Shown here: piece by piece, positions 53,301-56,300 of the stretch
Layout: each line of letters begins with the position of its first letter
Numbering within the stretch: position 1 is the stretch's first letter
Origin: Astropecten irregularis
Taxonomy: Eukaryota; Echinodermata; Asteroidea; Paxillosida; Astropectinidae
Direction: 5' to 3'
NCBI GenBank assembly: GCA_963971285.1
Contig: OZ020259.1
Coordinates: 4,154,001-4,218,000 of the forward strand
Length of the DNA: 64,000 bases
The notes under the pieces: model-generated
Told to the model about the DNA's origin: nothing
Database searches by the model: none
Seen by the model: the letters and a program-made list of their open reading frames with translations, nothing else
Position numbers and translations under genes: made by a program

Positions 53301-56300
53301 AATCATGTGCTCTGGAAACATTTAATTTGGGCCTTTTTGGACTTCATAAAACTGTGCAAAATCTGTACTTAAAGGTACATGTACTATCATACTTTGGTAG
53401 CAAACCGAAACAGAAATCTTCACAGATTTACCAATAACCTACATCGTATAAAGATGGTGATGGTAGAAACATACAGTTAAAACATTTCTGCCTGAAATGC
53501 TGCATTTATCCAGAAAAGAGTAAAACCGATGACCAAAAAACAATTTCGATCTTCGGAATATCAAAAATCCTGTGAATAGATTTGAAAATATCATCAGCCT
53601 TTTCACTGTTTTCTCAAAAAGTGGGCACCGCACGGGACTCGAAATTTCACAGATGACTGTTACTGTATCTTCCTTGATATTTTTACTCATGAATCTGTAT
53701 TTCTTTGGCAAAAACCAAAGTACGAAATAACCTTACTGAAATGCCCTCTTTTCAAAACAGTCCTCATTTCGATTAAATTACTTATTAATCAGTTCCTGTG
53801 AAAAACAAAATAACATGAACTCAAAACTCTCTCGCACCAGAAAAATATTCAAATATTTCTAAATTTCAAGCAAAAAATATCAGCAGAATGTTGTATGCTT
53901 CTATAACAATTATAGCAATTATAATAGGGGAACAATGCCTTATTGTTTTCTGTACAACTATAATAATTGTTAATAACAGTCGCAACAAACAGGAAGTAGA
54001 TAGCGAGACAATGTGATGGCAAGGCCTGCTTTAGTTTGATGGCATTTCTTTTGGGGTGAAACTCGTGTTATCTAAAAACAATAGTGCAAGAACACCATAT
54101 TGATATGTGCAATGTACTTTCTGGCTCGCCACGGCGTTATAAGATTGCATAATATAAGATTATACCTATATACATGTATGTGGATCGGTTTGCAGAAACA
54201 CCATGTAAGAATCGTTCGTACTTTCGCACTTCTATTTCGTTCACACTTCTCGTCGAAGTCTCAACGTTTCGACTAGCCTGCTCTAGTCATCATCTAGTCT
54301 GCTCTTGTCTCCTGTTGGTCTCCTGATGATGACTAGATCAGGCTAGTCGAAACGTTGAGACCTTACGAAAATTGCGAACGAAATAGAAGTGCGAAGGTAC
54401 GAACGATTCTTATACATGGTGTTTTCGCATACCAACTTGTGTCACCATGCAAAGTCTCAAATCTTTCATAAGAGTCCCAAACAGTTCACAAACGAAGAAT
54501 TGTGAACTGTGCTCTGTTTGTTCTGCTCTGCATTTTGGAAGAATATTATAATAGATAATGTTAACTTAGAAGTGTTCCCAATACTACATTTCCATTGAAA
54601 AAAAATAATAACCCCAGCAAAAACAATGTTTGTAGTTTAATTTATTGTGAAGAGTATATTAAAGGTTCTACTTTGGTAAGGTTGATAGAACAGCTGCAGT
54701 CTGTTCATAATTTGATTTGTCATGGAATAAAAACAAACCTGTGAAAATTGTCAGCTCAATTGATCATTTGAATCAGTAGAAAACAAAAGAAAAAACGTTG
54801 CACTTGTTACGCGAAATTTTGAGGTAATTGTAATAGTGAGGTTTTGATCTCGGAGATCAAAACTGTTTTCGGTCTTTTGTTTTACTCATTTCTGGATAAA
54901 TACAGCATTTCAGGCAAAATAAATTTAACGGCATGTTTGTACCAGGTCTATCTTTATACCCTGTAAGTTACGTAAATCTGTGAACATTTTATTTTCTGTT
55001 TTGGTTTCCTTATACCAAAGTATGATACTACCTTAAACAATACAAAACATAGCTTTCAAATATCGCCCGTGCATAGATTTGTTTTACTATCCAGTATCGA
55101 GATCAAAATTCATAGGTCAGGCTTCGTCAGATGATCTGAATAATATTTCCATGGCAACCGGAAAAAGATAGTCAAAGCAACATTTTGTTATTCTCCAGAC
55201 TGTTGATAAAGGGATAAACTTGCAAAAAACAACATATAGCTATGCAAAAACTATAAGAGGAATCAATGAGGTAGAAAATTCAGTTCTAGCGTGCTACAGT
55301 CCGAGTCCTGAGGCCAAATTCATAGAGCTGCTTAGCACAAAAGAAAATCGCTAAGCATGACATTTCTGCCTTAATAAAAACAGGATTGACAACTAAATTT
55401 CCATGTGTTGTGTATCGCTTGCAATTGTTCTTTGGTTGTTGTTCGCTGACCATGAATATCAAATCGAATTTTCAATGATGGTTTGTTTTATTGGGCAAGC
55501 CATTAATTTTTTGTGCTAAGCATGTTTTTTTTTTTTAGCTCAGCATATCTATAAAATTGTTGTTGTACATGTACATGTATTTATATTAGCACAGAACTGG
55601 GGCCAATTTCATAAAACTGCTAAGCACAAAAATTTGCTTAGCACAAAAATAGCTTGCCCAATAAAACAAACCACCATTGAAAATTTCATTTGATATTCAT
55701 GGTCAGCGAACAACAGCCAAAGAACAATTGCAAGTGATACACAACACATGGAAATAACGTTGTTAATCCTGTTTTTACTAAGACAGAAATGTCATGCTTA
55801 GCGAATTTTTGTGCTAAGGAGCTCTATGAAATTGGCCCCTGGTGTATTGTCAAGTCTCTTTCAAACCACCCAGATCCCAGGGCAGCCCCTCAAAAGTCAA
55901 AAGAGCACCCCCAAAAAGACAGAGTTTGAACTTGGCAAACATAACCATGCACACACACTAGCAGGGTCACAGTAATTCAGAAACAGGGAGGTCGGTCTGG
56001 CCGTCCTAAAAAAGATCGCAAAGGATAATAAATGACACTTAGTCCCATGTGACAATATTGACACAAATTGTTTGTCACGCAAAAATGGGGCTTTGGTAAA
56101 CAAGGGCCCGCCTACAATGGAGGGAAGGAGGGGTTTAAGGGGTTATATATGGCTACAAGGCAAGTTCCATTGTTCTGGCAGAACTATGATGATACACGTT
56201 GCGTTTGTTCAGCGCACAGGTATAGTTACTTCTGTACGGGACCCCTTGTACTGGCCGACACCCCTAACACACGATCCCCACCCCCTCCTCCCTATTTGCA

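Follow-up and report, generated by a model that had tools for sequence, protein, structure and literature searches.

The 64-kb stretch of Astropecten irregularis DNA analysed here (the window) carries two copies of a hammerhead-like motif, F1, near 54 kb and near 12 kb, together with a tandem array of a second motif, F2 (Table 1). Direct reading of the 54-kb site gave exactly the layout described in the earlier note, including the one extra base (a T) between CTGATGA and stem II. The 12-kb motif, read from 12203 to 12158 on the minus strand, consists of CUGAUGA, an extra G, GACUAG...CUAGUC, GAAA, CGUU and GAGACC, with a stem I of 5 bp and a stem II of 6 bp. The type I core, CUGANGA plus GAAA, is present at both sites. 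Elements of the F1 family follow a plan of hammerhead (~46 nt), 34-nt spacer and tail, and are short (about 124-158 bp) and non-coding; a six-frame Pfam search of the 52-57 kb region (E up to 0.1) detected no domain, and the element is too short to hold RT plus GIY-YIG. The left-hand of the two copies at 54 kb is broken at its 5′ end within the CUGAUGA box (TAGATGATG). The window also contains a minus-strand open reading frame (61476-62813) whose product resembles a GATA4/5/6 transactivation region; a Pfam search of this frame returned no family.

Table 1. Coordinates of F1 and F2 features in the window.
Feature	Position	Strand	Basis
F1 hammerhead-like motif	54317..54362	+	direct reading, layout scan, covariance model
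F1 stem I (6 bp), GGTCTC / GAGACC	54317-54322 / 54357-54362	+	direct reading
F1 box CTGATGA, then extra T	54323-54329, 54330	+	direct reading
F1 stem II (6 bp), GACTAG / CTAGTC, 6-nt loop between	54331-54336 / 54343-54348	+	direct reading
F1 GAAA, then CGTT	54349-54352, 54353-54356	+	direct reading
F1 predicted cleavage site	between 54356 and 54357	+	predicted
Right-hand element copy, with hammerhead (5′ end), spacer and long tail (3′ end)	54317..54467	+	
Left-hand element copy, head-to-head with right copy; short 3′ tail; hammerhead incomplete	54176..54294	-	
Second F1 motif	12158..12203	-	layout scan, covariance model
Second element copy, 148 bp, stem I to long 3′ end	12055..12202	-	
5′ target-site duplication of 12-kb copy, TCATCGTAACTT	12203..12214	-	
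3′ target-site duplication of 12-kb copy, TCATCGGAAGTT; 10/12 identical to 5′ one	12042..12053	-	
F2 tandem array, 54-58 nt spacing	44706..45091	-	
F2 units keeping stem I and UUGAGAA core	44710-44748, 44874-44912	-	

Both strands of the window were scanned for a layout of box, stem II, GAAA, U-H site and stem I, with a minimum of 4 bp set for either stem. Two sites were returned, at 54323 on the plus strand and 12197 on the minus strand, each with one extra base and the minimal 4-nt spacer. One hundred dinucleotide shuffles of the whole window produced four matches with any spacer (2-39 nt) and none with the minimal spacer. The two sites are related copies and therefore count as a single event above chance, not as two independent ones.

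A covariance model (R1) was built from phage hammerheads alone, with no sequence from the window. A hammerhead pattern lacking the extra base matched 49 viral contigs, filtering on stems I and III left 28 distinct sequences, and 26 of these were aligned (excluding L055 and L056); in the alignment, stems I and II often differ on both sides of a pair, partly by construction since the sequences had been pre-selected for pairing. The best match of R1 in the window was 54317-54362 (21.5 bits, rough E-value 2.7e-4), supporting the hammerhead identity proposed in the earlier note. The 12-kb motif, 12203-12158, ranked second (15.8 bits, rough E-value 0.022), and the third match had an E-value of 0.22.

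Rfam called no hammerhead at gathering level in the whole window, and none at E up to 10 in 53.8-54.9 kb. With E up to 10 over three short stretches, the sole hammerhead match was a weak one of RAGATH-1-hammerhead to the 12-kb copy (12.1 bits, E 5.1). In a control with ten phage loci taken from hammerhead patterns, six without and four with the extra base, Rfam likewise called no hammerheads. The negative result for the window is therefore uninformative, and the Rfam models used here overlook minimal hammerhead motifs of the F1 kind.

In the host genome (475.7 Mb, 168 contigs) an exact pattern of box, one free base, exact stem II and GAAACG, which leaves stem I outside, occurs 1,229 times, and an exact 27-mer from the tail occurs 1,483 times; reversed-pattern controls gave zero for both. 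A similarity search with the tail sequence, in which very common words were skipped, yielded no candidates, against these 1,483 exact occurrences. F1's own pattern was found in no viral or prokaryote contig and in no phage or plasmid record searched. A DNA similarity search of the genome, with 40 of 553 candidates scored, gave at least 60 matches, and 30 loci were fetched, the window itself among them. A complete F1 motif was present in 25 of the 30 loci, with 30 motifs in total. Across 41 ungapped copies (31 distinct), each core position is kept in 93-100%, and all 12 pairs of stems I and II are standard in 26. Covariation in the stems, which the earlier note had proposed as a check, is essentially absent among these copies: only one copy, in L092, has changed on both sides to give a standard pair, the T-A at the outer end of stem I, and by BLAST this copy starts one base inside that pair.

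F1 departs from the canonical core in that stem II does not directly follow A9 (G10.1-C11.1), one extra base intervening. Since stem II is not contiguous with the core, we class F1 as a hammerhead variant. Exactly one extra base was found in all 30 F1 motifs of the fetched loci and in all 16 motifs of the Penelope-like element (PLE) loci described below, in scans that permitted 0 to 2, the F1 loci having been found by similarity to an insert-bearing query and so providing no independent test of an obligatory insert. The base is T in 32 of the 41 copies, G in seven, and C and A in one each; among the first 100 listed of the 1,229 genome motifs, counted by eye, it is G in 65, T in 29, A in five and C in one. 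An array of 18 exact F1 motifs at C1:3250936-3252003, counted among these 100, has a spacing of mostly 54-55 nt, far shorter than the 80-nt unit found elsewhere.

The same insertion occurs outside the genome. Seventeen viral contigs matched a pattern that includes one extra base, and six of them scored below an E-value of 1e-3 with R1 (L002, L007, L008, L004, L011 and L017; L002 at 3e-13). In these six the extra base lies at the same place as in F1 and is U in five and C in L008; all stem pairs are kept in L002 and L007, and nearly all in L008. A one-base insertion is thus present, as a minority, in otherwise standard phage type I hammerheads. The core-variant section of Perreault et al. 2011 lists insertions after A6 and within GAAA, an insertion between A9 and stem II being absent from that section (PMC3088659).

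F1 copies are found singly, in tandem or head-to-head. Some carry tandem units of about 80 nt on the 5′ side followed by a unique tail, with three units in L089, two in L087 and, in L075, four box sites and a further, fifth unit bearing a deletion. Ends were mapped in 19 copies, namely the 12-kb copy and 18 of the 30 genome loci (head-to-head and boxless loci excluded). The 3′ end fell at tail position 43-48 in ten copies, at 78 in eight (meaning at least 78, as the comparison string stopped there) and elsewhere in one, giving two places about 33 nt apart. For an Anolis PLE, an optional tail of 30-40 bp is described as the sequence between two reverse-transcription start sites (PMC11167929). 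F1, with ten and eight of 19 copies at its two discrete 3′ ends, shows the optional 30-40 bp tail expected of a non-autonomous PLE, and we take this apparent correspondence as the strongest link between F1 and PLEs.

The flanks of the mapped copies were compared for target duplications. A 5′-flank repeat of 7-13 nt begins within 2 nt of position 78 in six of the eight longer copies (L077, L082, L084, L086, L092 and the 12-kb copy), that of L086 being no better than chance pairs; L071 and L088 lack a flank repeat near position 78. Duplications of 7-13 bp stood above every mismatched pair in seven of the 19 copies (L077, 12/12 matches; L084, 10/10; L091, 12/13; L081, 11/12; L092, 11/13; L082, 7/7; the 12-kb copy, 10/12) and did not in the other 12. 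For the 12-kb copy an empty site was found: its joined flanks map to an uninterrupted sister host repeat (57378-57514), on which they overlap by 12 bp (57486-57497), as would be expected from target duplication. Past the end of the tail, sequence shared between the F1 copies compared is limited to ~50 nt, the exception being 146 nt common to L078 and L079, apparently a local duplication.

PLEs in the same genome were sought through their GIY-YIG domain; 150 of 158 candidates were scored, giving at least 60 matches, and 12 loci were fetched, nine of them PLE loci. The representative open reading frame (920 aa, L130:2006-4768) matches RVT_1 at 28.7 bits, just below the cut-off, and GIY-YIG at 26.5 bits, above it. 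The eight others are 97.3-99.8% identical to L130 over 1.9-3.2 kb, possibly a recent family of near-identical elements. A further candidate, L133, was rejected as a PLE, being a 24-kb contig (C94) with bacterial-type uvrC, chorismate-binding and EamA genes, from a symbiont or contaminant. On contig C24, L134 contains a 545-aa frame (2898-4532) with B-box zinc finger and NHL matches and a GIY-YIG domain, its 3′ part 73% alike to the PLE; it may be a captured PLE endonuclease. L135 (2974-4551, C24), with a similar GIY-YIG frame, adjoins it.

A generalised architecture scan detected F2 in eight of the 12 fetched loci (eight of the nine PLE loci), with 16 matches. F2 consists of stem I GCCU/AGGC, the core UUGAGAA, one extra A, stem II GAUCC/GGAUC (varying in one array unit) and GAAA. 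In L130 it lies on both sides of the open reading frame (1833 and 5100), the first within a partial upstream copy, and the spacer of the PLE itself is CGCGUC, compared with the 4-nt CGUC. F1 and F2 differ on both sides of stem I, of stem II and of core pair 3-8, where F2 has U3-A8 and F1 has C3-G8, a covariation known in natural hammerheads (PMC3088659). The generalised scan of the window gave four matches, at both F1 sites and at two units within the 44706-45091 array; 100 shuffles gave three, one of them with a 4-nt spacer. The F2 motif was also seen at window positions 31258, 33990 and 47832. In L127 a satellite-like F2 array (8335-8963, minus strand) with mostly 37- and 41-nt spacing lies ~3.4 kb from a PLE open reading frame.

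The PLE-style 3′ ends of F1 and the presence of a PLE with the same architecture in the same genome bear out the PLE link suggested in the earlier note. The F1 unit with its tail was part of a PLE in none of the nine PLE loci, although L129 has a separate F1 copy ~1.8 kb from its PLE open reading frame, and no autonomous PLE with F1 motif and tail was found among the loci compared.

Taken together, the data make it likely that F1 is a minimal type I hammerhead of the PLE kind that heads a short non-coding retroelement at its 5′ end, with PLE machinery as the most likely means of copying this element; confidence in this identity and mode of spread is held down by the fact that duplications stood above mismatched pairs in only seven of 19 copies. 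In the mechanism we infer, an RNA of one or more hammerhead units plus tail would be reverse transcribed from either of two start sites in the tail, and the DNA copy would be inserted with target duplications of 7-13 bp. Template switching would sometimes join copies in tandem or head-to-head. The ribozyme would cut U-U^G only where two copies meet, ACGU pairing with ACGU, or when the element's protein binds.

The F1 hammerhead and its mini-element are of a type known before, though unusual in some details. Minimal type I hammerheads without helix III are reported in PLEs, and are dispersed by the thousands in animal genomes (PMC7761336, PMC7229834, PMC6155905). As described in papers citing Cervera and de la Pena 2014 and Lunse et al. 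2017, these share with F1 the core, stems I and II and the absence of helix III; their presumed dimeric action, their thousands of dispersed animal copies and their presence in PLE flanking repeats likewise resemble the F1 and F2 picture. The apparent difference is the single additional base that the examined F1 copies have after A9, before stem II. The Poseidon PLE of Anolis carolinensis (PAc) is described as having a hammerhead near its start, two reverse-transcription start sites, a 30-40 bp optional tail and tandem copies, all as in F1 (PMC11167929). Unlike PAc, which is autonomous with an open reading frame, the F1 element is non-coding; F1 copies end, on the 3′ side, about 83-88 or 118 nt past the predicted cut.

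How the F1 ribozyme might act depends on stem III. The two-pair stem III of the earlier note is a formal one, since ACGU would need a zero-nucleotide loop; A15.1-U16.1 can pair only between two copies. Minimum-energy folds of F1 units are rods, and that of the 54-kb unit pairs the extra U with the G that opens GAAA. When two L089 units in cis are folded as a double hammerhead, the calculated energy is -28.3 kcal/mol, compared with -40.1 kcal/mol for the best fold (12 less stable; tertiary contacts not included). The rod folds and the weak double hammerhead would fit low activity of a single unit. Reviews note that PLE minimal hammerheads may act as dimers, and one calls their role unknown (PMC7761336); the Anolis PLE hammerhead is reported to cleave only with protein and to be dispensable for insertion in vitro (PMC11167929). 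Because of the dimer proposals in reviews and the protein requirement in Anolis, we prefer a dimeric or protein-assisted mode for the predicted cleavage. Whether F1 self-cleaves at all we judge to be evenly balanced.

A serious rival, with a chance somewhat short of even, is that F1 is a degenerate relic, a descendant of a PLE ribozyme that has lost cleavage and survives only as a structured landmark, for example a boundary for reverse transcription or a hairpin that binds protein. The relic and the dimeric or protein-assisted readings are alternatives on activity within one identity. The extra core base, the impossibility of an intramolecular stem III, the rod-like folds and the behaviour of the Anolis hammerhead without protein would all suit a relic. 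So would the 5′ ends, mapped in ten element stretches besides the locus-defining ones (seven outside the window and three within): positions 1-5 account for five of the starts, position 9 for one, 47 for two, 90 for one (near a locus edge) and 98 for one (in an inverted partner), whereas position 41, where the predicted cleavage product would begin, accounts for none. Against a relic, 35 of the 41 copies, a set gathered by similarity, retain both CUGANGA and GAAA; the extra base is not the same throughout the 41; and the insert-bearing phage hammerheads L002, L007 and L008 keep all or nearly all of their stem pairs. In the two stretches starting at 47 (L083 1970-2049 and L129 6297-6381), similarity to F1 begins just after stem I and the whole hammerhead is missing, an end other than that predicted for cleavage.

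Retrozyme membership, raised in the earlier note, appears improbable. A metazoan retrozyme would be a circular-RNA retroelement with classical type I hammerheads of its own, and the likeness to F1 lies in short, non-coding, hammerhead-bearing units in tandem, for which mobilisation by PLEs has also been proposed (PMC7761336, PMC7229834). However, the metazoan non-LTR retrozymes are described as having canonical type I hammerheads with tertiary contacts in units of 150-450 bp (PMC7229834), whereas F1 lacks the canonical helix III and has a unit of 80 nt (mostly 54-55 nt in one array); its unique tail outside the repeat unit and its two 3′ ends are PLE-like. Satellite hammerheads of newt and axolotl resemble F1 in their very weak helix III and are reported to cleave better as dimers, but their units are ~330-350 bp, and the axolotl helix is described as a single pair with a palindromic tetraloop, where F1 has no loop at all.

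The earlier note had also placed the motif in a palindromic repeat family. The 54-kb feature is indeed a long near-palindrome, made of two copies head-to-head; the single arm of the 12-kb copy, however, shows the palindrome to be one arrangement of the element rather than its unit. It is very unlikely that the palindrome at 54176-54467 is a miniature inverted-repeat DNA transposon with transposase-cut terminal repeats and an incidental likeness to a hammerhead. Such a transposon would account for the GAAA side occurring on both strands close together in 11 of the 30 fetched loci, a number favoured by a query that held part of the left arm, and for the six pairs within 300 bp (126-228 bp apart, counted by eye) among the first 100 listed tail sites, all minus/plus and hence head-to-head. 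Yet the 12-kb copy and 17 of the 29 other fetched loci are not head-to-head, part of them with duplications of their own, and duplications of variable length, a preference for two 3′ ends and the 80-nt tandem 5′ units are features of a retroelement. Chance resemblance within a microRNA-like hairpin has a negligible likelihood: mir-279 is the best sub-threshold Rfam match of the 54-kb palindrome (41.7 bits; gathering 56), but the long hairpin comes from the head-to-head layout and is absent in the 12-kb copy, and the shuffles, the phage-built R1 and the genome-wide count argue against it.

A bolder form of the preferred hammerhead reading, which we regard as doubtful, would make F1 a distinct hammerhead sub-class with an obligatory unpaired base between A9 and stem II, heading thousands of ORF-less mini-PLEs, inactive alone and switched on only by pairing of units or by a PLE protein. 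The idea of an obligatory insert draws on copies found via similarity or an insert-bearing pattern, and on the second family, F2. If it is true, the ribozyme would report that the RNA is multimeric or bound before cutting. F1 offers one ribozyme in many natural copies, whether single, tandem or inverted, in a genome that also has a PLE family of near-identical, possibly recent members, and these forms, together with that PLE family, make the dimer and protein-assistance ideas directly testable.
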